From Acetomicrobium hydrogeniformans (GTDB lineage: Bacteria > Synergistota > Synergistia > Synergistales > JAFGMB01): a stretch of DNA of 64,000 bases. The notes beneath the pieces were generated by a model. It was not told where the DNA came from, made no database searches, and was given only the letters and a program-made list of their open reading frames with translations. How positions within the stretch are numbered: position 1 is the stretch's first letter; every line of letters starts with the position of its first letter. Position numbers and translations under genes: made by a program. Below are positions 1,351 to 19,180 of this stretch, piece by piece. The stretch is taken from assembly GCA_016841745.1 (NCBI GenBank), contig JAENYO010000006.1, positions 117,008 through 181,007 on the forward strand, written 5' to 3'.

Positions 1351-2787
1351 TTACTTCATCTTTCTGGAAAGAAATATAAGCGGAATGAATAGAATAAGAT
1401 GGATGGTCGAAATTTCAGAAATACTACAGCCATCTCCACTTTCCCCCTCAGACCGAGGAAGAGTTATAACGTAAGAATCTCCTCCGGATTCATAAGCACC
1501 TATGTCAGGACTCTCTCCTTGTGGCCTGGGTACTCCACGCTGATCTGTGGAAGGTGCTCCAGTTTCTGTCCCTGCATCTATGGCTGGACTCCCTTTCGAG
1601 AGCGCACATGTTAAAGTTGGACCTCCATTATCTGCCAATGGTCCTAATAGAGGATCTGCAGTAAGAATATCTCCTGTAACATATGAATTCCTGCTTATCT
1701 TCCTGTTTTTGATGACACAATAACCTACTTGAGGGTAACTGAAAGAGGAACCATTGTACTCTATATAATTCAGGATCTCATAGTCACCATCATCCCAGAA
1801 TATGCAGTTCGTCACTATAGGACTGGAACTGAGGAAATTACAGATACCGCTACCATCACCTGCGTTGTTATCTTTGAAGGTACAGTTCATAACTATGGCG
1901 GGTGAATTAAAGTAATTACATATTCCAGCACCTTTATCCGAATAATTTTTTATAAAAGTACAATTGGTCACTATCGGATTGGAAGAATCGTTATTCATGC
2001 CTCCCCCAAATGATGAATAAGATTCTGAAAAGGTGCAATTCGTCACCTGAGGATTGGAGTTTTTGTTACATATTCCGCCACCAAATCTTCCCGCTTCATT
2101 CGAGGCAAAAGTACAACCCACGACAGTAGAATCAGAGTAATGATTGTATATTCCACCTCCATCACCTGCTATGTTCGAGGAGAAGTTACAGTTCGTAACT
2201 CTTAGGCTACAATTATCGTTATATATGCCGCCGCCATCAATAGCACTATTCGAGGAGAAGCTACAATCCGACAAGGTGGAATCAGAATAATAATTGTATA
2301 TTCCACCTCCAGAATCTGCGTTGTTTTCAATCAAAGCACAGTTGATAAGTGTTAAATTCGAAAAATAGTTATAGATTCCACCTCCATCTTCATCTTCAGT
2401 ATTTCCATTCGCAATGGCAATACCAGATATGTGCACAGAACCAGGCGCACGGATATAAAAGATCCTGCATGTTTCACTACCACTTATGATAAGTTGATCT
2501 GCTCCTGGCCCCTGGATGGTAATGCCCTTATAAATCCCCAGCTGACTCTCCAACGTTATGGTTGCAGGGTATTCAAGGTCAAAACTTATGACATCCCCAC
2601 TTACAGCATTTTCAATGGCGTAGCGTAGAGAATCAGGGTTCGAGACATCATCACTTACACTGGTGACCATAAGAGTATCAGCCTGAATTTGAGTTGCTAA
2701 AACACTAATGAATAAAGCTAAGAGAAATACAAAAGGTAGAAAGAAAATTAAGCGTCGAAAAGAAACCGTGCTGAAACTGATCTTCAT
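1351..2787 (-). CDS. Secreted beta-helix protein A, choice-of-anchor Q type, Synergist-CTERM
   Basis: A predicted surface or secreted protein of 478 residues. Residues 1-36 form a signal peptide. Residues 37-120 are the shared N-terminal domain (SLRYAIENA, TIQGPGA). Residues 130-350 contain about nine beta-helix repeats of roughly 24 residues built on GGGIYN and TNCTF. About 365-425 is a choice-of-anchor Q domain (LADNGGPTLT, SPAIDAG, TDQRG, DIGAYE). The last 28 residues, starting GDGCS, form the Synergist-CTERM tail with a membrane stretch and basic end. GGGAGGTCC precedes the ATG, as in the four paralogues. Of the five, this copy is the most divergent in its tail. The ligand or substrate is unknown; no catalytic residues are evident. 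Confidence 0.85.
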   Translation of the reverse strand: MKISFSTVSFRRLIFFLPFVFLLALFISVLATQIQADTLMVTSVSDDVSNPDSLRYAIENAVSGDVISFDLEYPATITLESQLGIYKGITIQGPGADQLIISGSETCRIFYIRAPGSVHISGIAIANGNTEDEDGGGIYNYFSNLTLINCALIENNADSGGGIYNYYSDSTLSDCSFSSNSAIDGGGIYNDNCSLRVTNCNFSSNIAGDGGGIYNHYSDSTVVGCTFASNEAGRFGGGICNKNSNPQVTNCTFSESYSSFGGGMNNDSSNPIVTNCTFIKNYSDKGAGICNYFNSPAIVMNCTFKDNNAGDGSGICNFLSSSPIVTNCIFWDDGDYEILNYIEYNGSSFSYPQVGYCVIKNRKISRNSYVTGDILTADPLLGPLADNGGPTLTCALSKGSPAIDAGTETGAPSTDQRGVPRPQGESPDIGAYESGGDSYVITLPRSEGESGDGCSISEISTIHLILFIPLIFLSRKMK

Positions 2788-2879
2788 ATAAAGGACCTCC
2801 CCAAATGGAAATCAGGATATGAAAAATAGGCTAATAAGGGACAAGCGATCTTGATGTGATGGCAAAATAAGAAAGAACG

Positions 2880-3176
2880 AAGAAATATGTAAGGTTAATG
2901 GTTAAGTATTTTTTCATGTTAACACCATGTATTTATGCGTCAAGTTAACCCATCGTGTGAAAAATAACAGTTCCTTCTTAATGCACCCTCGAACTGATAT
3001 GCTTTTTTCAGTCCAGTTCACCCGGCAGACTAAACGGACTCCCGCTCTCCATTTTGCACAATCCCCTACAATTACAGCATCTCTTCAAAACCCAGCTTCA
3101 GCAGATTTTAACATTTTTCGCCCAGAATAAAAAAGGACCCCGAACACACGGAACGTGTTGGGACCCTTTGGTGTTA
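2880..3176. repeat. Intergenic repeat, copy 2
   Basis: A full copy between the start of gene A and the stop of the permease. Recognisable blocks in order are GTTAACACCATG, GTCAAGTTAA, CACCCGGCAGACTAAACGGACT, AAAACCCAGCTTCAGC and the hairpin at 3132-3169. On the minus strand the hairpin lies after the permease stop and is followed by a T-rich run, so it can terminate permease transcription. The far half lies upstream of gene A and may contribute its promoter. Its presence next to an unrelated gene shows that the repeat is not just the 3' end of the beta-helix genes. Confidence 0.8.
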
Positions 3177-3342
3177 CACGATGGTTACGAACAGCTTCCT
3201 TTTTCCTTCCTGGCAAACAAAAACATTAACGATCGATGTTTCTGATGCCTTCGGGGAGTATATGCATATCCTCTTTAAGAAGCTGGTCAAAGTAATCCAC
3301 GGTTTTTTTTCAACCGAACTGTTGTTGGTATCCAGAGGATCC

Positions 3343-4707
3343 CTAGGATATGAACCAAGCGATATACCCTATCAAAGCCGAAGCCAATGTAACGGGAAGA
3401 GCCAGGAACATTATCTTTAGAGGATCTGCTTTCTTTGCCAGAATCCCACCTACAATACCTACAATTACGAAAGTAGTCAGACATGCCGGAGGCATTGACT
3501 GACCAGCCGCAGCCAAATGAGCTCCTCCAAGAGATGCAAAGGTTGGATTGACCGCGAAATTATCCGTAAGTATGGGTCCAAGGAACGTAAAGATAGTGTT
3601 TTGTGCCGTGCTCTGAGATCCAGTAAGCATACCGACAAGCATCATCATAGCTCCACCACCGATCTTCATCATCCCGGCAGAGAGGGTCTTAGTGAAAACC
3701 AGCACGGCATCAATCAGTCCGGCTTTATAGAAAGCTCCGATCATGATACCGGCAAAAACCTGGATCTGGACTGTTTTTGAAACCGCAACAATACCGTTCT
3801 TCACAACTTCTGCACCTTTGCTTCGGACAGATTTTGCACCAAAAGCAACAAGCGTCGCCACAATTATCGCCTGGAGAATACGGCTGACACCACCGAAAGA
3901 AACGATACCACGCACTATGGGAATAGCCTTAAACGGAGCAAGCACCGGATCCAGGATCGTGAGTAACTCTATGTGGAAACCACTGCGAAGAACAATTATG
4001 ACTACAAGGACGATAAGGGGGAAAAGGTTTCTCCATTCGTCTCCGAAGATCTTTCCCGCAGAACGATCTGGAATAAGTTCAGAAGGAAGAGATTTAATTT
4101 TAAGAAAGGTCCAGGACCATAAAACAGAGATCAAGACGAGTAGACCAGTAGTGAAATAACCGATATTTATAACCGGCCCTATATCTGTTCCTACTAGAGC
4201 TGATGAAAGAAATATTGCCTGGGTAATTGGAGGCATGAGGGCACCCATTGAAGAGCCCATGAGAATTATGCACCCCGTCTGTTCCGGAGAAAGACCCATG
4301 TCATCAAGAGCTTTGATAATGAGTATCCCTATAACAGTTGCAGCCGCGATACCATCACCCAAGAGGGACCCTGAAATGACCAGAGTAATAATGATCGATG
4401 CAACAAGCCCTTTGGGAGTTTTGCCGATCGTGGCACGAAACATTCCCAGAACCGTATCTATCGCACCCATTTTAACCTGGGTCTGCGCATATATACTACC
4501 AAAGATAGACAGCCCGATAACCCAGGACAACTTGTCTATACCAAATATTGCCGCCTGAAATCCTTCCCCAAAACCAAGACCCCCCATTGCCATCGCTGCA
4601 ATGGCTGATAAAAACAAACCAAGCCGGATATTGATATTACTGATCTGACGAATCGGGAGCAAGATCACCAGGAAAAGAAGAATAACTGGAACTATAACCA
4701 ACAGCAT
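3343..4707 (-). CDS. DctM-like large permease (TRAP / ion transporter superfamily)
   Basis: An integral membrane protein of 454 residues with about 11-12 hydrophobic segments along its whole length. GSLLGDGIAAATV (near residue 115) and SSMGALMPPITQAIFL (near 150) resemble the conserved loops of DctM-type secondary carriers, which take up organic anions with an ion gradient. No DctP binding protein or DctQ small subunit is adjacent, so it may be a stand-alone carrier of the wider superfamily. GGAGG lies before the ATG. It sits between beta-helix genes A and B, with an intergenic repeat copy on both sides. A consensus promoter covered by a Fur-type operator lies about 470 bases upstream, which suggests iron-regulated expression. 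The substrate is unknown. Confidence 0.7.
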   Translation of the reverse strand: MLLVIVPVILLFLVILLPIRQISNINIRLGLFLSAIAAMAMGGLGFGEGFQAAIFGIDKLSWVIGLSIFGSIYAQTQVKMGAIDTVLGMFRATIGKTPKGLVASIIITLVISGSLLGDGIAAATVIGILIIKALDDMGLSPEQTGCIILMGSSMGALMPPITQAIFLSSALVGTDIGPVINIGYFTTGLLVLISVLWSWTFLKIKSLPSELIPDRSAGKIFGDEWRNLFPLIVLVVIIVLRSGFHIELLTILDPVLAPFKAIPIVRGIVSFGGVSRILQAIIVATLVAFGAKSVRSKGAEVVKNGIVAVSKTVQIQVFAGIMIGAFYKAGLIDAVLVFTKTLSAGMMKIGGGAMMMLVGMLTGSQSTAQNTIFTFLGPILTDNFAVNPTFASLGGAHLAAAGQSMPPACLTTFVIVGIVGGILAKKADPLKIMFLALPVTLASALIGYIAWFIS

Positions 4708-5175
4708 TTTGAAACGCCTCCTTCAGATTGTAAGATTGATGTTGAAACCCCAATTAGAGAGCCATATCCTGAATGAGAAGTTTTGCGTCCTGAAAAAGCT
4801 CTTTCCCCCCTCCTTTTTCTATTGCAAAACCCACACTCCGGCTCTCACACGAAAAACCCTTTTACTGGTAAACACGCAAAAGGGTACAATCGACCAGATA
4901 TTTCCCATGATCGTGAGATTTCTTTTCCTCAAGATTGGTGCGATTATAAAAAGATCAAATTAGTCGTTTCCTGGAATCAAGCTGAAAAGATCCTTTACGA
5001 AATAACCCGAGGGGAAATACTCCACAAAGAGCAAACCCGTTAAATACCTACTGACCTGGAAATGGGTAATACCTTGGATCAGTAAACATCGAAGGTCAAG
5101 AAACACACAAGATCCAACATCCCCCCAGTTTATGTAGATGATGTAATTCCATCTCTCGAGATCTATGCGATTTAT
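4708..5175 (-). other. Long untranslated leader of the permease gene
   Basis: About 470 bases separate the predicted start of transcription near 5185 from the permease ATG. No convincing minus-strand reading frame is present; the longest starts stop within 20 codons. It could be a regulatory leader, but it matches no riboswitch class I can recognise. Confidence 0.4.
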
Positions 5176-5221
5176 TGATAACGATTACTATTATCATAAT
5201 TAATTAAAGTTTAAATGTCAA
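5176..5221 (-). promoter_or_regulatory. Sigma-70 promoter with overlapping Fur-type operator
   Basis: On the minus strand TTGACA (5221-5216) and TATGAT (5198-5193) are separated by exactly 17 bases. The palindrome at 5176-5196 has arms TGATAA and TTATCA and overlaps the -10 box, where a bound Fur-family repressor would block RNA polymerase. The next gene downstream is the permease. Confidence 0.7.
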
Positions 5222-5384
5222 TTGCATTAAAATATCTCCCCTAGTCAAGTCTCAAAACTGTTCTCCACATACTCCCCTGGAATTAGAATGTAGGCTGTAC
5301 AAAAGATCAGAACAATCATTATCCTCTTGCTTGATGAATTGAACATATGAAGAAGAATGCAAAGAAATTAGTTAGGTCAAAGAC

Positions 5385-5650
5385 AACTTCTTTATTAACA
5401 CTACAGCTTGCTAAGTTGAGTTAATTTACCAAATGAAAAAGTACGGTTTTTTTATAATAAATTCTGAAAATGTTATTCTTTTCGTCCTCACTCTCCCCGA
5501 CAGACTAAACGGACTCCCATTATCCAATTCGCGCAATCCATTCCAACCACTCCATCTCTTCAGAACTCAACTCCGGCGGACTCAGGCCTTTTCACTCCAA
5601 AATAAAAAGGACCCCGAACACATAAAAAGTGTTGGGATCCTTTGGTATTA
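5385..5650. repeat. Intergenic repeat, copy 3
   Basis: The copy runs from TTATTAACACTACAG through AAGTTGAGTTAATTTACC, CCCCGACAGACTAAACGGACTC and the CGGCGGACTCAGGCC block to the hairpin at 5606-5643. It lies after the stop of gene B and before the permease promoter region. Unlike copies 4-7, its far side is not joined to a beta-helix gene leader. Confidence 0.8.
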
Positions 5651-5683
5651 CTATATTTAATTCAAATATACTGTTTTATCTGC

Positions 5684-7183
5684 TTACTTCATCTTTCCTG
5701 ACAAGAACATCAGCGGTAACACAAGCAACAGTGCAATGCCTGGCAGTCCAGAGATGTTGCAACCATCTCCGTCATAGCCTGGCTTAAAATCCACATGAAT
5801 AGAATGATTCTCCGTTACATTTTCAAACGTAAGGGTATTGTTAATTATCTCACTGGAAGGGATAACTTCCTCATCCACATAGACTGCCTCGATGACGTAA
5901 CCTTCATCTGGCAGCAGATAAAATACCTCGTTCTCTATTCCGCCTAATGTGTGTGCTTCTTCTGGAGAAATACTACCTCCTTCTGAGGCTGTGGCAGTTA
6001 TTACATAGACTTCAATTCCGGATTCGTAGGCACCAATGTCGACACTACCGCTACTGTAAGGTCTGGGCGCTCCCCGCTGATCTGTAGATGGCGCTCCACT
6101 GTCCGTTCCAGCATCTATGGCTGAGCTGCCTTCTCCCAGAGCACATGTCCAGGTCGGACCACCGTTATCTGCCAAAGTTCCAAGTTCAGGATCTGCAGAA
6201 ATGATATCGCTGGAAATTGTCCCAATACCAACATCATAGCTCTGGACAACGCAGAAGCTTAGGGTAGGGAAGAAAGGTCCTACAATTTCAGTGTTGTATA
6301 TTTCACCACCATCATCCCAGAATATGCAGTTGGTCACTTCGGGGCTGGAATCGTCAACGTTGGACATTCCGCCACCTTCAGTAGTTGCACTGTTCGAGGA
6401 GAAGGTGCAGCTGGTCACAACGGGGCTGGATTCATTTTTGTTGTACATTCCGCCGCCTTCTCGAGCGCTGTTCGAGGTAAATGTACAGTTCGTCACGGTG
6501 AGACTGGCTTCATCCCAGTTGGACATTCCGCCGCCTTCTCGAGCACTGTTCGAGGTAAATGTACAGTTCGTCACGGTTGTGCCGGGAACCAGGGAGTTGC
6601 ACATCCCGCCGCCGTTAGAAGCGCTGTTCGAGTAGAAAATACAGTTTCTGACTGTGGAACTGGATCCCACGTTACGCATTCCTCCACCAGCATACGCATT
6701 GTTACCACTGAAACAACAGTTATCCACTGTGAGATTATCCGACAGGTTGCATATGCCTCCCCCACGGCTTACATCATATATATCGGCATCTCCGCTCACG
6801 ATGGAAATACCAGATATGTCCACGGACTCAGCCGTACTCTCAACATAAAAGACCCGGCATTCTCCTCCCCCGCTCACTGCAAGGTTCTCTGCTCCAGGTC
6901 CCTGAATGGTGAGTCCATGGTCGATGCTGAGCTGTTCTGAGAGTGTTATGATGGCCGGATATTCAAGGTCAAAGGTTATGACATCCTGGCTCGTCGCATT
7001 TTCGATAGCGTAACGTAAAGAATCGGGATTCGAAACATCATCGATAGTGGTGGTAACCGTGAAGGTATCTGCATAAACCGCTGTCGCCGTACCGGTAAAA
7101 GAAATAACTGCGACCAACACAAATACAAACAACATACAAACTGTAGAATGGCGAAAAGCTATCTTGCTGCAACTGATCTTCAT
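5684..7183 (-). CDS. Secreted beta-helix protein B, Synergist-CTERM
   Basis: A 499-residue paralogue of protein A. A signal peptide covers residues 1-39. The shared N-terminal domain runs to about 130 (DSLRYAIENATSQDVITF, TIQGPGAENL). About five to six beta-helix turns (GGGMxN, TNCTFTSNSA) follow to about 300. A choice-of-anchor Q domain ends at DIGAYE near 395. Next comes a domain of about 70 residues (YVITATASEGGSISPE to ENHSIHVDF) like the bacterial repeat modules that often precede anchors. The tail starts DGDGCNIS. Two beta-helix turns are nearly identical at the DNA level (around 6460-6570). The first 110 codons are almost identical to those of gene C. It probably acts at the cell surface; the binding partner is unknown. 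Confidence 0.87.
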   Translation of the reverse strand: MKISCSKIAFRHSTVCMLFVFVLVAVISFTGTATAVYADTFTVTTTIDDVSNPDSLRYAIENATSQDVITFDLEYPAIITLSEQLSIDHGLTIQGPGAENLAVSGGGECRVFYVESTAESVDISGISIVSGDADIYDVSRGGGICNLSDNLTVDNCCFSGNNAYAGGGMRNVGSSSTVRNCIFYSNSASNGGGMCNSLVPGTTVTNCTFTSNSAREGGGMSNWDEASLTVTNCTFTSNSAREGGGMYNKNESSPVVTSCTFSSNSATTEGGGMSNVDDSSPEVTNCIFWDDGGEIYNTEIVGPFFPTLSFCVVQSYDVGIGTISSDIISADPELGTLADNGGPTWTCALGEGSSAIDAGTDSGAPSTDQRGAPRPYSSGSVDIGAYESGIEVYVITATASEGGSISPEEAHTLGGIENEVFYLLPDEGYVIEAVYVDEEVIPSSEIINNTLTFENVTENHSIHVDFKPGYDGDGCNISGLPGIALLLVLPLMFLSGKMK

Positions 7184-7284
7184 ATAAAGGACCTCCCGAA
7201 ATAGAAATATAGTGATGAAAGAACACCGGCTAAAAGGAACAATTGATCTTGATGTTATAGCGAATAAAAATGGACGTAAAAATA

Positions 7285-7570
7285 TCTAAAGATGCTCGGA
7301 AAAGACTTTTACATATTAACATCATAAATCTATGGATCAAATTAATTCACCATATAAAAGAGTAACAGTTTTTCCCGTTACAGATTCTGGAAATATTACT
7401 CTTTTATTCCTCTCTCCCCAACAGACGGGATGGACTCCCATCATCCAATTCCTGCAAGCCATTCCAATCACAGCATCTCTTAAAAACCCAGCTCCGGCGG
7501 ATTGTTGTTTTTTCTCCCCAAAATAAAAAGGACCCCGGACACATAAAAAGTGTTGGGATCCTTTGGTATT
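7285..7570. repeat. Intergenic repeat, copy 4
   Basis: A full copy between genes B and C. It contains ATCAAATTAATTCACCATA, CCCCAACAGACGGGATGGACTCCC, AACCCAGCTCCGGCGGATTG and the hairpin at 7527-7564. The hairpin follows the stop of gene C by about 40 bases; the far half adjoins the leader of gene B. Confidence 0.8.
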
Positions 7571-7603
7571 ATTTGATATTTATAAAACTGTTCTTTGTTT
7601 TAT

Positions 7604-9286
7604 CTACTTCATCTTTCTAGACAGGAACATCATTGGTATTACCAGCAACAAAGCAATGCCTGGCAAAGCAGAGATGTTGCATCCATCTGAATTTCTATGA
7701 GCAGTTTCATCATCACTACTGGGTTGGAAATCTGCACTTATTACATGGTTATGTGATACATTCTCAAAAGTATAGGTAAAAATATTATCTATCGTCTCGA
7801 AGGAAATTAGTGTTCCATCGACGTAAACTCCTTCAATAAAGTAATGTATGTCCGGGCTAATCATAAATGAAACACTTTCATCAAAATTAACACTTACCGC
7901 GCCAGGAGCTATCGTTCCGCCACCAGTCCAGGATGCATTTATAAAAAAGCAACCAGATTCATAGGCACCGATATCGAAACTTACATCATCAGGTCTGGGT
8001 GCTCCACGCTGGTCGGTAGTCACTTCAGCAATTGTCATTCCTGCGTCTATGGCAGAACTGCCCTCTCCAAGGGCACATGTCCAGGTAGGGCCACCATTGT
8101 CTGCCAAAGATTCAAGTTCGGGATCTGCAGACGTAATATCGCTTGAGTTTGTACTAATACCAACATCATTGCTCTGGACGACGCAGAAACTTACGATGGG
8201 TTTGCTTTGTGAGAATTCATCATCTGCAGGAAAGTTGTATATTTCGCTGCCACTGATATCCCAGAATATGCAGTTTATAACTCTTGGGTTGCTATTATCT
8301 TTGTTGTACATCCCGCCGCCAAGATCTTGAGAAGCAAGGTTGGAGGAGAAGGTACAGTTCAACACTGTGGGGCTGGAAAAAGCATTGTACATTCCACCAC
8401 CGGAATCAATCGCAGTATTCTCACTGAAGGTACAGTTTGTTATATCGGGGCTGGATAACAAGTTAATCATTCCACCACCGTTAAATTTTGTAGTATTGTC
8501 GCTGAAGGTGCAGTTGCTAACAATAGGATTTGCCTGTTCGTTAAGCATCCCACCACCATAATCTGAATCGTTCCTGATAAATGTGCAGTTGGCCACTATA
8601 GGTTCAGATTTTGCATTACACATTCCGCCTCCAAAAAGTGTTCTGTTTTCACTGAAAATACTGTTGCTCAAATAGGGACTTGAATAGTAGTTACACATTC
8701 CGCCACCAAAAGCTAGTGCATAATTTTCTCTGAAAGCGCTGTTGGTAATCGTTGGGTTGGAATTGTGATTGTATATCCCGCCACCATAATCTGAATTATT
8801 ATCTCTGAAGATGCAATTGGTCAAGGTGAGACTGGAATTGAGATTGTACATTCCTCCCCCGTAATCTGAGGATAAAACCTCAGAAGAGGTATCCCCACTA
8901 ACAATGGAAATACCCGATATATCTACGGACTCAGCGGTGTCTTCGATATAAAAGACCCGGCATTCTCCTCCCCCGCTCACTGCAAGGTTCTCTGCTCCAG
9001 GTCCCTGAATGGTGAGTCCATGGTCGATGCTGAGCTGTTCTGAGAGTGTTATGATGGCCGGATATTCAAGGTCAAAGGTTATGACATCCTGGCTCGTCGC
9101 ATTTTCGATAGCGTAACGTAAAGAATCGGGATTCGAAACATCATCGATAGTGGTGGTAACCGTGAAGGTATCTGCATAAACTGCTGTCGCCGTACCGGTA
9201 AAAGAAATAACTGCGAGCAACACAAATACAAACAACATACAAACTGTAGAATGTCGAAAAGCTATCCTGCTGCAGGTGTTCTTCAT
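7604..9286 (-). CDS. Secreted beta-helix protein C, Synergist-CTERM
   Basis: A 560-residue paralogue with the same layout as B: signal peptide (1-39), shared N-terminal domain, about eight beta-helix turns (roughly 145-345), choice-of-anchor Q domain (ADPELESLADNGGP to DIGAYE), an added domain of about 75 residues (INASWTGGGTIAPG to HVISADF) and a DGCNIS tail ending SRKMK. Its turns differ from those of B (for example TNSAFRENYA, ANCTFIRNDSD), although the first 110 codons match almost perfectly. This mosaic pattern points to gene conversion between neighbours. GGGAGGTCTTTTATATG gives the start. Confidence 0.87.
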   Translation of the reverse strand: MKNTCSRIAFRHSTVCMLFVFVLLAVISFTGTATAVYADTFTVTTTIDDVSNPDSLRYAIENATSQDVITFDLEYPAIITLSEQLSIDHGLTIQGPGAENLAVSGGGECRVFYIEDTAESVDISGISIVSGDTSSEVLSSDYGGGMYNLNSSLTLTNCIFRDNNSDYGGGIYNHNSNPTITNSAFRENYALAFGGGMCNYYSSPYLSNSIFSENRTLFGGGMCNAKSEPIVANCTFIRNDSDYGGGMLNEQANPIVSNCTFSDNTTKFNGGGMINLLSSPDITNCTFSENTAIDSGGGMYNAFSSPTVLNCTFSSNLASQDLGGGMYNKDNSNPRVINCIFWDISGSEIYNFPADDEFSQSKPIVSFCVVQSNDVGISTNSSDITSADPELESLADNGGPTWTCALGEGSSAIDAGMTIAEVTTDQRGAPRPDDVSFDIGAYESGCFFINASWTGGGTIAPGAVSVNFDESVSFMISPDIHYFIEGVYVDGTLISFETIDNIFTYTFENVSHNHVISADFQPSSDDETAHRNSDGCNISALPGIALLLVIPMMFLSRKMK

Positions 9287-9384
9287 ATAAAAGACCTCCC
9301 ATGATATGAATAAAGATATTATGGAATCTTCTGAAAAGGAACAATTGATATTGATGTTATAACGAATAACAATGGACGGAAATT

Positions 9385-9672
9385 ATGTAACGTTAATGAA
9401 AAGATTTTTTCTTATGTTAGCACTATGGACCTATGGGTCAAGTTAATTCACCAAATGAAAAAGCAACAGTTTTTACGTACCACATCCTGAAAATATTACT
9501 CTTTCATCCTAAATTCACCCGACAGACGCAACGGACTACCAATACCCATTTCCCGCAATCCGTTCTAATTACTACATCTCTTAAAAACTCAGCTCCGGCG
9601 GATTGTTGTTTTTTCTCCCCAAAATAAAAAGGACCCCGGACACATCAACAGTGTTGGGATCCTTTGGTATTA
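9385..9672. repeat. Intergenic repeat, copy 5
   Basis: A full copy between genes C and D: GTTAGCACTATGGACCTATG, GTCAAGTTAATTCACC, CACCCGACAGACGCAACGG, CAGCTCCGGCGGATTG and the hairpin at 9628-9665. It is very close to copies 4 and 6, and it follows the stop of gene D by about 35 bases. Confidence 0.8.
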
Positions 9673-9704
9673 TTTAATATTTACAAAACTGTTCTTTGTG
9701 CTAT

Positions 9705-12428
9705 TTACTTCATCTTCCCTGACAGGAACATCAGCGGTAACATCAGCAAAAGTACAATGCCTGAAAGTACAGAGATGCTGCAGCCTCCACCTCCACCGCC
9801 GTCATTATCGTCAATAGGTTGAATAACAGCTACCAGGGGATCCTTGAAATGTCCATCTCGTTCTCCATCAAAGATGAAGAAGTACCGGTCTACTCCATCA
9901 GAAATGGCCTGTACTGCCATTTCTGGTGTATCCGCCGTGGCATCAGCAACGAGAAGATTCATTCCCACATAGTAGTTGTCCAGATCCGAATCCACATCGA
10001 AGAAGGCTTTGGCTTCTTCTTCCTCATATTTCCCCCACGCTTCTTCAAGGAGGTTATATACGTCGGAGCTGATGATCTTGAGTATTTCCACATGGTCCAG
10101 GAATGCGGATCTGAGTCCTTTATCTGCGGATTCCTCGTCTATCAAGGATGCGTACTCCAGTCCTATATCTTCCCTGGAGATATTCATCTCCACATGCAGG
10201 GGCAGGATCGCCCAGTCAGCTCCATCCTGGCTATAGGATATATCAAAGGATACTCCTTTGACGAATACTTCTCCTTGTTCCCTTCTTTCAATCAGGGGGG
10301 CTACAACACCCGCTGTTATTGCCTGCATATAGATATCTTCCAGGGAATCATCGGTAACACGGTCAAGGTCACCGGAGGTTATTCCTGAAGGCAGTAAAAG
10401 ATTTTCAAGCAGATTCCCACGCAGGTTAGGATCGCTAAGCGAGAAATCCTCGAGTCCGCTTTCGCTCACCATGCTCGGATTAAAGCAGAAGGATACCGAA
10501 ATGGTGTGGTTTGCATGGACTGGTTCAAGGGTAAGGCTGCTCACTGATCCTTTCGACACGCCATCAAGGCGAACATCATCAATAGCAAAGCCCGTACAGC
10601 AGTCTATATCATATGTGGGCGTAGCATCCCAGGTCACGGTATCGTCCCCTGAGATATCACCGTGACATCCACAGTCCTTGGTGATGCTAAAAGTCTTCAG
10701 TTTAAAGACCGCTTTCACGGACATGGGTCCTGTTATAGTTATGGTCTCCGGATTGATGCTTCCGGTAAGACCTTCCTCCCAATGCGAAAATCGTGAACTC
10801 ACGTGGGGAGTTGCGGTAAGATTCACCTCCGTACCGAGGGGATAAATGGAAAAGTCTGGAGAAGTTGTAACACTTCCACTTCCTGTAACAATTAAGGAAA
10901 GACTGTACTCTTCAAGGGCGAAATCGGCGCTTATAAGGTGATCTGCTGATACGTTCTCGAAGGGATAGGTAAAGGTACCGTCCCCTTCGGGCTCAAAGGT
11001 TATGGGTAACCCGTCAACATAGATCTCATTGATGTGATAATACGAATCCGGACTTACAGTGAAGGGAACATTGTCACCGAAGCCAATATCGGCAGAAGCG
11101 GGTGCGATAGATCCGCCATCGGACCAGAAGGCATCTATCAGATATGAGGTCCTCTCATATGCACCTATATCATAATCTGCACCCCAGGGTCTTGAAATCC
11201 CTCGCTGATCTGTGACTGGTGCTCCATCGTCCGTGCCTGCATCTAAGGCAGAACTTCCTACCCCCAAAGCACAGGTCCAGTTGGGTCCACCGTTGTCTGC
11301 TAATGTTTCAAGTTCAGGGTCAGCAGAGGTGATATCGTTTGAGTCTGTGCCAATACCAACATCATTACTCTGGACAACACAAAAACTTAGGATTGGAGGG
11401 GAAATTATATTCATGTTGTATATTCCACCACCATCACCCCAGAATATGCAGTTGGTCACGATGGGAAAGGAATAATTATTGAACATCCCGCCTCCATTAG
11501 TAGCGCTGTTTGAGGAGAAGGTACAGTACCTCACTCTGGGGATGGAAAAATCGTCGTTGTACATTCCGCCACCATACACTGAAATGTTTTCAGAAAAGGT
11601 ACAGTTGGTCAATGTGGGGCGGGATTGCCAGTTGTACATCCCGCCGCCCTCTCCTGCACTGTTTCCAGAGAAGGTGCAGTTGGTCATGGTGGGACCGCAA
11701 CGATAATTATACATTCCGCCGCCAGATTTACAGATGTTTGAGTCGAAGGTACAGTTGGTCACGGTGGGGCTGGAATTCATGGAATTGTACATCCCTCCGC
11801 CATCCCAATTTGAACGGTTTCCTGAGAAGGTGCAGTTGGTTAATGTGGGGTAGGATTCCCAGTTGTACATCCCGCCGCCCCGAGTAACTGCATTGTTCGA
11901 GGAGAAGGTACAGTTGGTCAATGTTGGGTCGGAATAATAATTATGCATCCCGCCGCCCTCTCCTGCACTGTTTCCAGAGAAAGTGCAGTTGGTCACGGTG
12001 GGACTGGAAGAATAGTTATACATCCCGCAGCATCCGTTAACTATGGAAATACCTGATATGTCAACAGACCCCGAGGCAGTAATATAAAAGACCCTGCATG
12101 CGTCATTACCGCTTACTGCAAGCAGTTCTGCTCCCGGTCCCTGGATGGTGAGTCCATGGTCGATGCTGAGCTGTTCATCCACTGTAATGATTGCCGGGTA
12201 TTCAAGCTCAAAGGTTATGATATCCTGGCTTGTGGCATTTTCGATAGCGTAACGCAAAGTACCTTCAACTGGATTACTTGTGTCATCACTTAAACTAGTA
12301 ACCGTAAAGGTATCTGCATAAACAGCTGTCGCTGTGCCCGTAAAAGAAATAAGTACAACCAAAATAAATACAAACAACATAGAAACTGTAGAATGTCGAA
12401 AAGAAACTGAGCTGCAACTGCTCTTCAT
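9705..12428 (-). CDS. Large secreted beta-helix protein D with extra C-terminal modules, Synergist-CTERM
   Basis: At 907 residues this is the largest paralogue. The signal peptide, shared N-terminal domain (here SNPVEGTLRYAIENA), about eight beta-helix turns (roughly 130-330) and a choice-of-anchor Q domain (to about 425) are as in the others. Then follow two to three bacterial-repeat modules of about 75 residues (AFWSDGGSIAPAS; LIVTGSGSVTTSP with FSHWEEG; FSITKDCGCHGDIS). A unique acidic region of about 220 residues comes next (SLSDPNLRGNLLENLL to YFFIFDGERDGHFKDP). The tail starts after a glycine run (GGGGGCSIS). The unique region has no family I recognise. It may be a functional head or spacer carried by the common surface scaffold. 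Confidence 0.87.
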   Translation of the reverse strand: MKSSCSSVSFRHSTVSMLFVFILVVLISFTGTATAVYADTFTVTSLSDDTSNPVEGTLRYAIENATSQDIITFELEYPAIITVDEQLSIDHGLTIQGPGAELLAVSGNDACRVFYITASGSVDISGISIVNGCCGMYNYSSSPTVTNCTFSGNSAGEGGGMHNYYSDPTLTNCTFSSNNAVTRGGGMYNWESYPTLTNCTFSGNRSNWDGGGMYNSMNSSPTVTNCTFDSNICKSGGGMYNYRCGPTMTNCTFSGNSAGEGGGMYNWQSRPTLTNCTFSENISVYGGGMYNDDFSIPRVRYCTFSSNSATNGGGMFNNYSFPIVTNCIFWGDGGGIYNMNIISPPILSFCVVQSNDVGIGTDSNDITSADPELETLADNGGPNWTCALGVGSSALDAGTDDGAPVTDQRGISRPWGADYDIGAYERTSYLIDAFWSDGGSIAPASADIGFGDNVPFTVSPDSYYHINEIYVDGLPITFEPEGDGTFTYPFENVSADHLISADFALEEYSLSLIVTGSGSVTTSPDFSIYPLGTEVNLTATPHVSSRFSHWEEGLTGSINPETITITGPMSVKAVFKLKTFSITKDCGCHGDISGDDTVTWDATPTYDIDCCTGFAIDDVRLDGVSKGSVSSLTLEPVHANHTISVSFCFNPSMVSESGLEDFSLSDPNLRGNLLENLLLPSGITSGDLDRVTDDSLEDIYMQAITAGVVAPLIERREQGEVFVKGVSFDISYSQDGADWAILPLHVEMNISREDIGLEYASLIDEESADKGLRSAFLDHVEILKIISSDVYNLLEEAWGKYEEEEAKAFFDVDSDLDNYYVGMNLLVADATADTPEMAVQAISDGVDRYFFIFDGERDGHFKDPLVAVIQPIDDNDGGGGGGCSISVLSGIVLLLMLPLMFLSGKMK

Positions 12429-12529
12429 ATAAAGGACCTCCCCAGATGGAAATTGAATTCAGAAAAAGATCGCATAAAAGCAATAAATGAACCAGGTGAC
12501 GTTATTGGATGTCGAATAAAAAGGGACGT

Positions 12530-12826
12530 AAAAGATATGTAAAGTTAATCGGGAAAGACTTTTTCATGTTAGCACAATGGATTAATGGGTCAAGTTAATT
12601 CACCATATGAAATAGTAACAGTTTTTACATAGCACATCCTGAAAAAAGCTGTTTGCTTCGCTCAATTAACCCGACAGACGCAACGGACTATCATCCTCCA
12701 TTTCCCGCAATCCATTCTAAACACCACATGATTTAAAAATCCAGACACGGCGGACTCATGTCTTTTCAAGCCAAAATAAAAAGGACCCCGAACACATCAA
12801 AAGTGTTGAGATCCTTTGGTATTACT
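12530..12826. repeat. Intergenic repeat, copy 6
   Basis: A full copy between genes D and E: GTTAGCACAATGGATTAATG, GTCAAGTTAATTCACCATA, AACCCGACAGACGCAACGG, ACACGGCGGACTCATG and the hairpin at 12780-12817, with one G-to-A change in the stem (GTTGAGATCC). The hairpin follows the stop of gene E. Confidence 0.8.
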
Positions 12827-12857
12827 TCATTGAGCCTAATGACAAGTTTCGCCGGGT

Positions 12858-14600
12858 TTACTTCATCTTTCCCGACAGGAACATCAATGGCAGCACCAGC
12901 AACAGGCCCGTAACTGACAATGCAGAGATGTTGCAACCATCTCCATTATCATGCGGTTCATATTCATAGGCACCGATGTCGTATCCAATTACTTGAGGTC
13001 GTGCTACTCCTCTCTGATCTGTACTTACAGTATCAACAAAGATTCCTGCATCTAGAGCCGAACTCGCTAATCCCAAAGCACAGGTCTGGGTGGGTCCGCC
13101 ATTATCTGCCAAGTTCTGCAACTTAGGATCTGCAGAGGTAACATATCCAGAAATTGTACTTAAATCATAGTCATCACTCTGGACGATACAGCAGTTAAGG
13201 GTAGGTATACTTGGCCCCAATGGGTCGTCATCTTCAGCAACGTTGTATATCTCGCCACTGCTTCCGTTCCAGAATATGCAGTTGGTCGAAGTTGGGCTTG
13301 ATCCATTAGAGTTGTACATTCCGCCGCCAACATCCGCGCTGTTAGCGGTAAAGGTACAGTTCGTCACGGTGGGGTCGGAATCGTAACAGTTGGACATTCC
13401 GCCTCCTTCATGAGTATTGTTCGATGAGAAGGTACAGTTCGTCACGGTGGGGTCGGACCACATGTTGTACATCCCCCCGCCAACATCCGCGCTGTTAGCG
13501 GTAAAGGTACAGTTCGTCACCTTGGGATCAGAGGATAAGTTGTTCATTCCACCGCCATGAGATGAATCTGAAATAAAAGGAACAATGTTTGAGGAGAAGG
13601 TACAGTCGGTAACAGTGGCTTCGGAATCGTAACGGTTGGACATTCCGCTGCCAATGTTAGAGGTAAATATACAGTTGGTCACTTGTGGATCAGAATCAAT
13701 GCGGTTATACATTCCACCACCTGTGTTGAAGGAGAAGATACAGTTAGTCACGGTGGGGCTGGAAAACAAGTTGCGTATTCCGCTACGATTGTTAAAGGTA
13801 AAGATACAGTTAGTCACTTGTGGATCAGAATCAGAATCGTTGTACATCCCACCACCATTATCTGCAGTATTTGAGGAGAAGGTGCAATCGGTTACAATGG
13901 GATTGGAATTGTCGTAGTTAAACATCCCCCCGCCGTTCTCATATGCACTGTTAGAGGAGAATGTACAGTTGGTAACTGTGGGACTGGATAAAGAGTAATT
14001 GGCCATCCCGCCGCCACAGTGGCTGGGGGGCTCTGTGGCACTCCAAGACTTGGGAGCACTGTTAGAGGAGAAGGTACAGTTGGTAAGTGTAGGACTGGAT
14101 TTATTATTGAACATTCCGCCGCCTAAATTAGTTGCAGTGTTCGAGGAAAATGTGCAGTTGGTCACGGTGAGGTTGGTGGATTCACTGTTGAGCATTCCGC
14201 CGCCATTATCAGAATACCCGCTCACAATAGAAATACCTGATATATCCACGGACGACGTGGCAGCAATAAAAAAAACCCTGCACTTTTTGTTTCCGCTGAT
14301 AAAAAGTTTATCTGCCCCGGGACCTTGTACGTTCAAGCCATGGTAAATGCCAAGCGTACTATCCAGGCTTATGACTTGGGGATAAGAAGTGAAACTAAAG
14401 TTTATAACATCTTCGTGAGACTGAGCACTGGCAATAGCCTGTCTCAAAGAACCTTCACCAGCATCGTTAGTGTTGGTAACTGTAAAACTCGCAGCATAAC
14501 CTGCCGTTCCCCAAAAACTGATAAATAAAGCTAACAGAAATACAAACAACATACAAACCGAAGAACGTCGAAAATAAACTGAGCTACTACTGCTCTTCAT
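12858..14600 (-). CDS. Secreted beta-helix protein E, Synergist-CTERM
   Basis: A 580-residue paralogue with the largest number of beta-helix turns: about twelve, residues 120-430. Several are near copies at the DNA level (around 13310-13540 and 13660-13860). The signal peptide ends near FWGTAGYA. The N-terminal domain reads SFTVTNTNDAGEGSLRQAIASA, close to the CSLREA-type start of many surface beta-helix proteins. The anchor Q domain runs from SADPKLQNLADNGG to DIGAYEYEP. The tail DGCNISALS follows directly, without the added repeat module of B-D. It lies nearest to the tRNA-Leu end and may be the ancestral form, which is only inference. Confidence 0.87.
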   Translation of the reverse strand: MKSSSSSVYFRRSSVCMLFVFLLALFISFWGTAGYAASFTVTNTNDAGEGSLRQAIASAQSHEDVINFSFTSYPQVISLDSTLGIYHGLNVQGPGADKLFISGNKKCRVFFIAATSSVDISGISIVSGYSDNGGGMLNSESTNLTVTNCTFSSNTATNLGGGMFNNKSSPTLTNCTFSSNSAPKSWSATEPPSHCGGGMANYSLSSPTVTNCTFSSNSAYENGGGMFNYDNSNPIVTDCTFSSNTADNGGGMYNDSDSDPQVTNCIFTFNNRSGIRNLFSSPTVTNCIFSFNTGGGMYNRIDSDPQVTNCIFTSNIGSGMSNRYDSEATVTDCTFSSNIVPFISDSSHGGGMNNLSSDPKVTNCTFTANSADVGGGMYNMWSDPTVTNCTFSSNNTHEGGGMSNCYDSDPTVTNCTFTANSADVGGGMYNSNGSSPTSTNCIFWNGSSGEIYNVAEDDDPLGPSIPTLNCCIVQSDDYDLSTISGYVTSADPKLQNLADNGGPTQTCALGLASSALDAGIFVDTVSTDQRGVARPQVIGYDIGAYEYEPHDNGDGCNISALSVTGLLLVLPLMFLSGKMK

Positions 14601-14694
14601 ATAAAGGACCTCCCAAAGTGAAAATTGAGTTCAGAAAGAATCGGATAAAAGCAATAAATGAACCAGGTGACGTTATTGGATGTCGAATAAAAGG

Positions 14695-14821
14695 GACGTA
14701 AAAGATATGTAAAGTTAATCGAAAACGTCTTTCTCATGTTAGCACTACGGACCTATGGGTCAAGTTAATTCACCATACGTAACCATCGCTACCAATTTCT
14801 CGCATCACCATCACAAATCCA
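14695..14821. repeat. Intergenic repeat, copy 7, far half (split by the element)
   Basis: It contains AAGATATGTAAAGTTAATCG, GTTAGCACTACGGACCTATG and GTCAAGTTAATTCACCATA, as in copies 5 and 6, then loses clear similarity near 14780. The rest of the unit resumes 4.1 kb away at 18920. Together the halves make one repeat unit between gene E and tRNA-Leu, with a slightly shorter middle. Confidence 0.75.
14810..14821 (+). repeat. Left 12-bp direct repeat, candidate att core
   Basis: ATCACAAATCCA, identical to 18920-18931. It overlaps the last codons of the 188-aa recombinase gene. Confidence 0.6.
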
Positions 14822-15377
14822 ACCTCATATATATCTCGTCCAGCTGTTCTTGGGTGATCCCGATATACCTCAATGTCACACCTGGCGATGAATGATTCAG
14901 CAGCTTCTGTATCTGCGAAAGATCATAGCCAGCCTTGTACGAATGGTAGCCAAAGGTCTTCCGCAAAGTGTGTGTCCCTATCTTTTCTTTGATACCCACA
15001 GTCCTGGCAGCTTCATTCAATATCCGGTAAGCCTGTACCCGAGTAATAGCACCGTTTCCTTTCTTGGACTGGAACAGTGGCAGATCATTTTTCGGTTCTA
15101 TTCCAGCCATATATTCCTGAATAGCCTTCCTGGCATTCTTACCAATCGGAAAGTCCTTTGACTTACCAGTTTTCTTTTCACGCATACTGATACGGTCCTT
15201 CACATTACCTTTATTATCCATCACATCAGATACCTTCAGTGCAAGCAGATCCGATACTCTCAAACCCGAGTTGATACCCAGCACGAATAACAGGTAATCT
15301 CTCACGTTCTGGCTCTTCAGTATCTTCTTGACACGTTCTATAACTTTTCTTTCTCTTATAGGCTGTACAAATTCCAT
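14811..15377 (-). CDS. Short tyrosine recombinase, catalytic domain only
   Basis: This 188-aa enzyme would cut and rejoin DNA through a covalent phosphotyrosine. All key residues are visible: Arg40 (SGLRVSDL), Lys near 69-72 (EKKTGKSK), His136-x-Leu-Arg139 (HTLRK), His162 (LLNHSS) and nucleophile Tyr171 (LRYIGI). The usual N-terminal SAM-like arm-binding domain is absent, as in FimB/FimE-type and other short recombinases. GGAGGTGCC precedes the ATG. Its stop codon lies inside the left 12-bp direct repeat. The gene lies downstream of a second, longer recombinase, with 234 bases rich in inverted repeats between them. It could promote integration, excision or inversion; its site is not proven. 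Confidence 0.88.
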   Translation of the reverse strand: MEFVQPIRERKVIERVKKILKSQNVRDYLLFVLGINSGLRVSDLLALKVSDVMDNKGNVKDRISMREKKTGKSKDFPIGKNARKAIQEYMAGIEPKNDLPLFQSKKGNGAITRVQAYRILNEAARTVGIKEKIGTHTLRKTFGYHSYKAGYDLSQIQKLLNHSSPGVTLRYIGITQEQLDEIYMRLDL

Positions 15378-15409
15378 TTATGGCACCTCCCTCAGTTATG
15401 TACTGCAAC

Positions 15410-15507
15410 CAGTAATTTTTTCCGGTTGTATTACTTTAAAAATCCTACGGTTGCTGCTATCAAGACATGAAACAGCCACAAGCCTTTGAAATTACTGGAC
15501 TTGTGGC
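15410..15507. promoter_or_regulatory. Cluster of inverted repeats between the two recombinase genes
   Basis: CAGTAATTT (15410-15418) faces AAATTACTG (15489-15497), and GCCACAAG (15475-15482) faces CTTGTGGC (15500-15507). The arms are perfect. They could be a recombinase or regulator binding region or a terminator for the upstream recombinase gene; no T-run follows on the minus strand. Confidence 0.4.
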
Positions 15508-15611
15508 AATTTATGCGATGTAACAAAAGTGCGTTGTGTTACCTGAACCTTCAACCTCTTCCTTGCATACTCGTTGTCTGTGACCTATTATTCTTGTGGA
15601 CTCCATGGACA

Positions 15612-16565
15612 TTACCTTCCACCCACTCGTCCCAGTCTTACCGACATCCCACACTCCAGCATATTCACCGGACTCGCCTTTGCATGCTGTTTCTGTATAT
15701 CTTCCTGGGTCAGTGCCAGGTATCTCTTGGTCATATCCAGTGTGCTGTGACCCATTAGCTTCTGCAATACAAATACGTTTCCACCGTTACGAAGAAAGTT
15801 GAGAGCAAAAGAGTGCCGCAAGTCGTAAGGCCGTACCTTGAAACCAATTTTCTTTGAGTACATGTTCATGCGCTGTGACCATGTTTCCGTCTTCATGCAC
15901 CCGGCTTCCCATGTACAGAATATGGGCACTTCTCCATTCCATTCTTCGGGCCTTACATTGAACACCTTTCTTATTGCCCTGGCAGTTACCTGTGTTATGG
16001 GTAAGGTACGAGATATTCTAGTCTTTGCATTAACAGCACGGACATATACTTCATAGGCTCCAAGGTTTATATCTGCAGGTAATAGAGAAAGACATTCCTT
16101 AGGCCTTATTCCAGTGTCGAGAGTAAGAAGAATAACTGCATGATCCCGTAGGCCTGAATAGGTTTGCGGATCAGGCTGCTTTAACAGGCCTTGCAATATG
16201 TGGATCGGTATATTGACTATGCGTGGTTCTTCTCTGCGCCTGGTTAGTCCGTCTGTGGGATTGGACTGCAGGAAGTCTTCCATGATGCACCAGTCGAAGA
16301 AGTGTCTCAGGTAGACAAGGCGAAGGTTATAGGTTCCGGGCATTACGGGTCTTGATAGATATGCCAATAGTGAAGGTTTTAGTTTCTGATTACTCCAGGC
16401 ATCCGGGTAGGCAGTAAAGAAGGCTGTGATGTGCCTGTCGTAATCGTAGATAGTTCTATCTGAACGGCCCTGGGCACGCTTGAATGACAGGAACTGGTTC
16501 ATTGCTTCGTTCCAGGTGGAAGATACCTGTTGTGGCTTGGATTTCAGTGACTTGAGACGCGGCAT
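15612..16565 (-). CDS. XerC/D-like tyrosine recombinase
   Basis: A 317-aa site-specific recombinase with an N-terminal SAM-like DNA-binding domain (about residues 15-105, including GRSDRTIYDYDRHI) and a C-terminal catalytic domain. Key residues are Arg154 (TGIRPKE), Lys181 (NAKTRISR), Arg250 in YDLRHSF, where Tyr replaces the first His of the usual HxLR box, His273 (LMGHS) and Tyr282 (TKRYLAL). AAGGAG lies ahead of the ATG. It begins about 50 bases from the divergent DUF6765 gene. With the 188-aa recombinase it makes a two-recombinase module. Such pairs occur on tandem-integrase elements, where both enzymes are often needed. Confidence 0.9.
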   Translation of the reverse strand: MPRLKSLKSKPQQVSSTWNEAMNQFLSFKRAQGRSDRTIYDYDRHITAFFTAYPDAWSNQKLKPSLLAYLSRPVMPGTYNLRLVYLRHFFDWCIMEDFLQSNPTDGLTRRREEPRIVNIPIHILQGLLKQPDPQTYSGLRDHAVILLTLDTGIRPKECLSLLPADINLGAYEVYVRAVNAKTRISRTLPITQVTARAIRKVFNVRPEEWNGEVPIFCTWEAGCMKTETWSQRMNMYSKKIGFKVRPYDLRHSFALNFLRNGGNVFVLQKLMGHSTLDMTKRYLALTQEDIQKQHAKASPVNMLECGMSVRLGRVGGR

Positions 16566-16619
16566 GAATTATAACTCCTTTCTTCGCACTTTTATTATCA
16601 ATTAAGGATGGTGATAGAT

Positions 16620-17825
16620 ATGCAAAAGGATTTTCACTTTTACACGACTTACGTTTTATGCAGATGCAATGGCTTACCTCATGAGAAAGCCAGGATCATT
16701 GCCTATTCTTCGCAACAGGTTGACGATGCAAAATACGGACATGAACTGGAATTCAAGGAAGGCGGACGTTTTCAGCAGCAGATGACAGCTCACGAATATG
16801 TGAGTCCCAAGATTCTCAATCTAAGAACCCAGTACGAGATTTACGGAACATACCATTTTATTCCTGGCAATAGACAGGATAAACGGAAAGAAGATGGAAG
16901 CATTCCGTTCAGACATAGAATGCTATGTGCAAAAAACAGCGAAGTATCGCAAAAGGTTTTTGAGCACGTGTACCGACAAAAGAAGGAACCAGATTTCTTT
17001 CACTCTCTTGGAATAGCTTTACACGCCTATTCTGATACATGGGCTCACCAGGACTTTTCAGCTTTATTCAAGTTTGAGAAAAACAATAAGATGAATGATG
17101 CAGATCATGTAATGGTTTCAAATAACAATGGTGATTATTACGAGCCTTATAAACCTGGAGAAAAGACGTTTGATAAGGTCCGAGGAAAAGCGGAAAGAAT
17201 TGGGAATTACATAATAAATCAATTCGAATTAATGAAGATGGGACATTGCCAGGTATATACCTTACCGGACGAGCCTTATCGAAAATGGAAATACTATCAT
17301 CGTTATTTGAATGAGCATATTGAACGGGATAACATTGAGATTTATCTTGATGCCAGTAAGACTATATATCAACAACTCCGAAATCTATTCTCGAAACCAG
17401 GACTAAAGCACCATATATCAGAACCTGTTATTGCCTGGGAGGATATCGAGGCAAATTTGGAAGAGTGCTTCTCATATGAAGATACACTGGAAGAACGCAA
17501 TAAAAATTGGCTAAAGGCTATTATTGCAGGAAACTTCGGATTTGCTATGTCTGATGGCTCACTGGACTCATTTAAATATGCCAGAAAAGAGTGGTTCAAT
17601 AAAGCCGTTGAAATTGAACCTAAGAAATCACGCCTTTTTGACAAGAAGAAATTGAATTGTTTCTTGATGTACGGAGAATTTAATCATCAAAGCTTAAAAG
17701 AAACATATTCAAGAAAAGATGGCTTTCTTACATCAGATTGGAAGTTATTCCATGATGCTGCCAGGAAATACAAAAACTTCTTCATTCATGACTTGTTACA
17801 AGAGTATGGGATGATCTGTGGGTAG
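16620..17825 (+). CDS. DUF6765 family protein, phospholipase C-like fold
   Basis: A 401-aa cytosolic protein without signal peptide or membrane segments. It has the family's features: opening MQKDFHFYTTYVLCR, RIIAYSSQQVDDAKYGHE, a TAHEY motif, YHFIPGN, and the helix HSLGIALHAYSDTWAHQDFSA with H-x3-D-x3-H spacing. The histidines and aspartates recall the metal site of zinc-dependent phospholipase C and nuclease P1 folds; that link is inference. The ATG at 16620 is chosen over 16608 because AAGGATGGTGA fits it and because the family begins at that point. It is divergent from the recombinase. Base composition is more AT-rich than nearby core genes, which fits acquired cargo. Substrate unknown. 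Confidence 0.75.
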   Translation: MQKDFHFYTTYVLCRCNGLPHEKARIIAYSSQQVDDAKYGHELEFKEGGRFQQQMTAHEYVSPKILNLRTQYEIYGTYHFIPGNRQDKRKEDGSIPFRHRMLCAKNSEVSQKVFEHVYRQKKEPDFFHSLGIALHAYSDTWAHQDFSALFKFEKNNKMNDADHVMVSNNNGDYYEPYKPGEKTFDKVRGKAERIGNYIINQFELMKMGHCQVYTLPDEPYRKWKYYHRYLNEHIERDNIEIYLDASKTIYQQLRNLFSKPGLKHHISEPVIAWEDIEANLEECFSYEDTLEERNKNWLKAIIAGNFGFAMSDGSLDSFKYARKEWFNKAVEIEPKKSRLFDKKKLNCFLMYGEFNHQSLKETYSRKDGFLTSDWKLFHDAARKYKNFFIHDLLQEYGMICG

Positions 17826-18021
17826 CAACATGTAGAATACCCACTCTTGGATCAATGTTGCATGTAGACACAAGTTTCGGTGGAGTATTCCCGATTGTTA
17901 CCTTTTTTCGAAAAGATAAACTAAACACAAATTTTACCAAAAGACAGTACATGACCCTTGTCTCTGCTGTTTCAGAAATGGCATATAAATGAATCTTGCT
18001 GAGAATACGCTTTCTTGAATC

Positions 18022-18777
18022 TCAGCTTTTCTGAGTTGCTGTTGGACAAATATCGTTCATGAAGCATTCATGACAATCAGGATCTCTTGGCTTGCAGCAA
18101 GTTCTCCCGATTTCCCAACATGGCCAATCCATTATTCCAGGAAATTCAGAGTAAAGTGCTCTTGCTTTATAGATTACCTGTTCCACAGTAGCATTCTCTT
18201 TGCAGAGGCCCAAGCGAGCAAATACTCTGCGAACATGAACATCTGCGGAAATATCAATATAAAAGTAATCACTAAATGGAATTTTGAAATCCCTGGCAAG
18301 AATATTAGCCGCCATACTACCTATCTTTGGTCCTACTCCATCAAACTCCAGAAAACGATAAACTACTTCGGCACTTGATGGTTTCCCATTCCATATTCGG
18401 GAAGCATCACTCCCATATTCCTGGACTATTCTTTGAACAGCCTTATGAAAATAACCACTCATTTGATCAATAAAGCGATGCAAAGGTTTAGGTTCCGACA
18501 TTAACCTATTTATCTCGGACTCAGTAAGTTTGTGGAGCCTTCCAACTGAAAATTCCCCGATTTTCTCCGAGATGAGGTATGGAATAAGCCATGCCTTTTC
18601 AGCCTTGAACTGACGGTCCATTACACATGCAAGAACAAAGGCATGAGGATGATTCATCAGATCATTTAGTAAGGAGTCAGCTTCTGTCACATTGGTAAAT
18701 GGGATAAACTGCTTAGGAGAATCAAACAAGTGCTGTCCTTTTCGGATTAATCTATCACGGATTTTTCTTTCACTCAT
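18022..18777 (-). CDS. HhH-GPD DNA glycosylase with [4Fe-4S] cluster
   Basis: A 251-aa base-excision repair type enzyme related to endonuclease III and MutY. A helix-hairpin-helix (FDGVGPKIGSMAA, about 145-157) holds Lys151 at the position of the lyase lysine. The catalytic aspartate is Asp179 in ISADVHVRR. Four cysteines at 228, 235, 238 and 244 have the spacing C-x6-C-x2-C-x5-C of the family's iron-sulfur cluster. The N-terminal 90 residues are not the usual endonuclease III sequence, so it is not a standard Nth. Being cargo of the element, it may serve recombination, base-modification repair or defence; none of these is shown. The damage specificity cannot be read from the sequence. Confidence 0.82.
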   Translation of the reverse strand: MSERKIRDRLIRKGQHLFDSPKQFIPFTNVTEADSLLNDLMNHPHAFVLACVMDRQFKAEKAWLIPYLISEKIGEFSVGRLHKLTESEINRLMSEPKPLHRFIDQMSGYFHKAVQRIVQEYGSDASRIWNGKPSSAEVVYRFLEFDGVGPKIGSMAANILARDFKIPFSDYFYIDISADVHVRRVFARLGLCKENATVEQVIYKARALYSEFPGIMDWPCWEIGRTCCKPRDPDCHECFMNDICPTATQKS

Positions 18778-18919
18778 TGATTCAACCTCAATGCATTCCC
18801 CGAATTTCTGTCATACCATTTCATAATGTAAACGCCTTCTTTCAGAAAGATGTCTACAAAGAAGAATTCAATGACGGTTTAATTTGATTGTATATCCTAA
18901 AGCAGATTCAAGCAAAATA

Positions 18920-18931
18920 ATCACAAATCCA
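18920..18931 (+). repeat. Right 12-bp direct repeat, candidate att core
   Basis: ATCACAAATCCA, identical to 14810-14821. It is followed by CCCGACAGACGCAACGG, the resumed intergenic repeat. Confidence 0.6.
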
Positions 18932-19086
18932 CCCGACAGACGCAACGGACTCCCATCCTCGATTTCCCACAATCAATTCCAATCACCACACCTCTTAAAA
19001 AACCAGCTCCGGCGGACTCAGGCCTTTTCAATACAAAATAAAAAGGACCCCGAACACATCAAAAGTGTTGGGATCCTTTGGTATTA
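18932..19086. repeat. Intergenic repeat, copy 7, hairpin half
   Basis: The copy has CCCGACAGACGCAACGGACTC, the CAGCTCCGGCGGACTCAGGCC block and the hairpin at 19042-19079. It sits directly 3' of tRNA-Leu on the same strand and probably terminates the tRNA transcript. Its other half is at 14695-14821. Confidence 0.8.
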
Positions 19087-19093
19087 CTATAAA

Positions 19094-19180
19094 TGGTGCC
19101 GAGAGGGAGACTCGAACTCCCACAGGGTCGCCCCCGGCGGATTTTGAATCCGCTGCGTCTACCGATTCCGCCATCCCGGC
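19094..19180 (-). tRNA. tRNA-Leu (anticodon CAA)
   Basis: An 87-base type II tRNA. The acceptor stem GCCGGGA/TCTCGGC closes it, the GGCGGAATCGGTAGACGC D-arm is typical of Leu, and the anticodon loop TTCAAAA (anticodon at 19144-19146) reads UUG codons. A long variable arm (CGGGGGCGACCCTG) and T-arm GTTCGAGTC follow. CCA is encoded at the 3' end. The intergenic repeat begins about 8 bases downstream. Confidence 0.95.

Follow-up and report, generated by a model that had tools for sequence, protein, structure and literature searches.

A 4.1-kb stretch of DNA beside a tRNA-Leu(CAA) gene carries genes for two site-specific recombinases and is flanked by identical 12-bp direct repeats. Most likely, this foreign DNA is an ordinary small mobile element, and positions 14810–18919 of the window (the whole 64-kb stretch of DNA analyzed; Table 1) probably form a small, non-conjugative integrative element that entered the genome of a Synergistales bacterium by site-specific recombination. 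The preliminary description had proposed an integrative element carrying a DUF6765 gene and an Fe-S DNA glycosylase gene, and this proposal is well supported by sequence comparison, because the terminal repeat is unique, the intergenic repeat at the insertion site is broken, a relative in another family appears to have moved horizontally, and the cargo is sporadic.

Table 1. Features of the element and of its surroundings, in window positions
Feature	Position	Strand	Basis
Left 12-bp direct repeat, with the rec188 stop codon inside; proposed attL core	14810..14821	+	Exact match, 2 genome copies
Right 12-bp direct repeat, proposed attR core	18920..18931	+	Exact match, 2 genome copies
Left part of paralogous intergenic repeat, outside the element; upstream region of beta-helix gene 12858-14600	14600..14778		89% to 12428-12606
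Right part of intergenic repeat, including tRNA-Leu terminator-like stem ~19046-19085	18926..19088		Alignment to paralogous copies
rec188: 188-aa tyrosine recombinase, catalytic domain only, phrog_216-type	14811..15377	-	PF00589; R40, H136-R139, H162, Y171 conserved
Intergenic region between the recombinases	15378..15611		82% to A. colombiense over a stretch including part of rec188
rec317: 317-aa tyrosine recombinase, tRNA-adjacent prophage/island integrase family	15612..16565	-	PF00589; R154, K181, Y247 (first His position), R250, H273, Y282 conserved
DUF6765 gene, conserved part of the module	16620..17825	+	PF20551 E 7.5e-84; 76% to A. colombiense
HhH-GPD/endonuclease III-like DNA glycosylase with Fe-S motif, variable cargo	18022..18777	-	Profile match; absent from the A. 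colombiense module
tRNA-Leu(CAA), intact	19094..19180	-	No copy of tRNA-Leu of at least 12 bases elsewhere in the window

The repeat sequence, ATCACAAATCCA, is exact and on the same strand at both ends, as had been described, and these are its sole copies in the 3.04-Mb genome, so that the 12-mer is not a commonplace one. When sequence of the lengths of the two break regions (62 and 40 bp) was Markov-resampled, an identity of at least 12 bases between the two arose in 9 of 20,000 trials. It was also confirmed that the left core overlaps the rec188 stop codon.

The direct repeats bound a split target, of which the right break is exact at the core and the left one is ambiguous by 31 bp. The right part of the interrupted intergenic repeat begins at the core and is 83–87% identical to four paralogous intergenic copies. 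The left part matches the paralog c12 (the intergenic copy at 12428–12860) at 89%, and its homology stops at 14778, leaving 14779–14809 unaligned. At this place the rejoined site would have 43 nt, compared with about 61 in c12. It had been claimed that the halves of the repeat lie outside the ends of the element and that excision would restore it; both halves do lie outside and the right one reaches the core, but the left one ends about 31 bp short of it, with the sequence between unaligned. The further claim that the element targets this repeat goes beyond what is seen, namely a single insertion, with the exact core in none of the other copies of the repeat. At the place of the right core, paralog c9 has ATCCTAAATTCA, matching at 9 of the 12 positions, which fits the right copy as the ancestral one; the element would have brought the left core copy, and the chromosome would have supplied the right one. 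A tandem array of paralogous beta-helix genes occupies 1351–14600 of the window, and the sequences between these genes, with their terminator-like stem, are similar to that downstream of the tRNA-Leu gene. When the tRNA-side repeat was aligned with the inverted repeats that lie between tRNA-Leu and rec317 in other genomes, the scores were no better than those of shuffled sequences.

Both of the tyrosine recombinases reported earlier were verified, as each matches PF00589 and has its catalytic residues conserved in family alignments. The family of rec188 is one of phages and plasmids. Its relatives were found in 2,944 plasmid records (best identity 64%) and in phage contigs that have terminase or portal-like genes close by, and they sit within phages, plasmids, and islands, away from the ends of the elements. 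In genomes of two other families, the gene closest to tRNA-SeC on its downstream side is a relative of rec188 (L063:8922-9500 and L064:9800-10408); no convincing tRNA-SeC duplication was seen beside the relatives in genomes G006 and G043.

The relatives of rec317 comprised 80 named loci plus viral contigs, and a tree of 111 rows was built, which leaves the nearest group of rec317 unresolved. In 70 of the 111 rows the gene starts at most 450 bp from a tRNA, and in 28 of these 70 it lies downstream of a tRNA-Leu gene that has the same orientation. Among the viral contigs, it is frequently found at the end of the record; a single-protein query of viral contigs gave no close relatives of rec317 or of DUF6765. 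In Paenibacillus, where a second copy could be read in seven genomes, 58–113 bp at the tRNA-Leu end are repeated 8.8–66 kb away. No such duplication of the tRNA-Leu 3′ end, of at least 12 bases, is present in the 64-kb window, and rec317 is 2.5 kb from the tRNA, compared with the about 130–290 bp usual in its family. In another genome (G077, locus L120), tRNA-Leu(CAA) is directly followed by a tandem pair of rec317-like genes.

In the proposed mechanism, a circular form of the element would recombine the 12-bp core at the 3′ end of rec188 with the matching core downstream of tRNA-Leu(CAA), which would leave the core at both ends after insertion; excision would rejoin the cores, with rec188 staying intact. 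We infer circularization and present activity of the element, and also the formation of the junctions by one of the two recombinases: either rec188, by position, or rec317, acting at a non-tRNA site. The position favors rec188, whose stop codon is within the core; rec317 is favored by the habit of its family as integrases, but not by the site that the family normally uses. It is distinctly unlikely that, in a mini-element with two recombinases, rec188, which has a catalytic domain only and ends within the attachment core, took over the choice of site from a tRNA-type integrase and so shifted insertion from the tRNA gene to just beyond its terminator.

A relative was found in Aminobacterium colombiense (G042), in which rec188, rec317, and DUF6765 have the same order and orientation, downstream of another tRNA-Leu, tRNA-Leu(TAG). 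There, rec188 is without its 3′ part, rec317 is broken into pieces, and DUF6765 is intact; the glycosylase gene is absent from the module, the DNA homology stopping at the DUF6765 stop codon. Thus, the search of other genomes for the recombinase pair with its cargo, which had been suggested, recovered three of the genes, but with the recombinases broken and the glycosylase missing, and the earlier statement that no described element has this gene set needs amending, since three of the four genes are found together beside another tRNA-Leu. Because these three genes occur there without the glycosylase, DUF6765 belongs with the recombinase pair in the conserved module, and the glycosylase is the variable part, probably exchangeable cargo. 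Identity to A. colombiense is 87–90% for rec317 and 76% for DUF6765, compared with 65% for a RarA-like housekeeping protein, and this comparison with a single housekeeping protein points to horizontal movement of the module between families.

Around the A. colombiense copy, no duplication of the tRNA-Leu 3′ end was seen in 59 kb. An 11-bp repeat, GGATTTCCAAT, at about 5395 and 10973 of its locus (L059) was read by eye as the possible ends of the copy and is too short to claim. The copy contains two extra inserts of about 0.6–0.7 kb, with one to few open reading frames, each flanked by diverged direct repeats of 43–63 bp, which duplicate the border of the recombinase gene on its 3′ or 5′ side (L059:6146-6188/6796-6838 and 7666-7728/8385-8447). 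SIR2-domain and HerA-like genes, resembling a defense pair, adjoin the module (L059:714-3672). In G071, a sister genome of A. colombiense, the 3′ end of tRNA-Leu(TAG) is repeated at least 13.7 kb away (L140, reverse strand), marking a separate island at the same tRNA.

The A. colombiense copy is broken and lies in a variable region next to tRNA-Leu, close to SIR2 and HerA genes, and this bears on a somewhat unlikely alternative, namely that the 4.1-kb stretch is what remains, after rearrangement, of a larger rec317-driven tRNA-Leu island or prophage. It would have been left behind, or inserted again, through illegitimate recombination at a microhomology of 12 bp, with its junctions made by neither recombinase. 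The membership of rec317 in a family of tRNA-linked prophage and island integrases, its unusual distance from the tRNA, and the resemblance of rec188 to a phage or plasmid gene are all in line with such an origin. However, both recombinases are intact in the window, the 64 kb hold no trace of a duplicated tRNA-Leu 3′ end, and the right break of the intergenic repeat falls at the direct repeat. It is highly improbable that these are host genes or fixed laterally acquired genes of a tRNA-side variable region, with a coincidental 12-mer pair and repeat halves that reflect divergence in the paralog array, as the 31-bp left gap, the shortness of the direct repeat, and a GC content near that of the surroundings (41% versus 42–44%) might suggest, given the low chance estimate, the confinement of the 12-mer to the two ends, and the higher identity of the module than of the housekeeping protein to A. 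colombiense.

Both proposed cargo genes had been named correctly (PF20551 with an E value of 7.5e-84; PF10576). The DUF6765 open reading frame opens at 16608, and the homologues begin at MQ, that is, at 16620. The gene is present in 4 of 188 Synergistota genomes and accompanies the recombinase module in two; it gave no match in phages and three distant ones (26–30%) in plasmids. Many His and Asp residues are invariant across four relatives, and because of this a metal-dependent enzyme is suggested. The structure predicted from four sequences has a mean pLDDT of 54 and gave no significant fold match. The glycosylase retains the endonuclease III Fe-S motif, with Lys in GVGPKIGS and Asp in SADVHVRRV, read directly from the sequence, at the endonuclease III catalytic positions; glycosylases of 66% identity occur in two genomes and one of 37% in a third. 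None of the four proteins of the element matched the defense-gene library.

The same genome has two further small elements, of 6.7–6.9 kb, at tRNA-Ser genes (L060:6968-13931 and L061:7427-14107, G000:C7), with copies of the tRNA-Ser 3′ end, 17 and 20 bp long, as their boundaries. Like the element described here, they combine a long tyrosine recombinase and a relative of rec188 (69% and 64%) with variable cargo, in one case an AbiJ_NTD4 protein, and no transfer genes were recognized among the open reading frames scanned. Unlike it, their long recombinase is of a 567-aa DUF6538 type located beside the tRNA, and their ends are the tRNA 3′ end. With these two sister elements and the A. colombiense relative, an apparent group of small tRNA-side elements emerges in Synergistales, of which a limited literature search found no description in this phylum. 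The clear junctions of the present element allow one to ask whether a short recombinase of the phage/plasmid type, such as rec188, can act as an integrase.

Among known systems, the tRNA-linked islands and prophages of Paenibacillus and Clostridia have a homologous integrase (43–54%), many of them downstream of tRNA-Leu in the same orientation, and those of Paenibacillus, like this element, have terminal direct repeats. They, however, duplicate 58–113 bp at the tRNA and span about 9–66 kb, whereas here the repeat is of 12 bp and is separated from the tRNA by 163 bp, and the integrase gene is internal. No relaxase or conjugation gene is present among the four protein genes, as an ICE or IME would have, so spread would need a helper. 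Strand-biased circularizing elements (SEs) are also small, with two tyrosine-recombinase genes and cargo, and have four shared core coding sequences, the two recombinases among them (PMC9345347), while two recombinases are recognized here, a comparison made by description. GInts have a recombinase cluster and cargo between imperfect direct repeats and need ginABCD, that is, three integrases and a small HLH protein (PMC5385486), whereas two recombinase genes lie between the repeats in our case. The element is neither a GInt, nor an ICE, nor a standard tRNA-Leu integrant; it operates as other small tyrosine-recombinase islets do, at an unusual insertion point.
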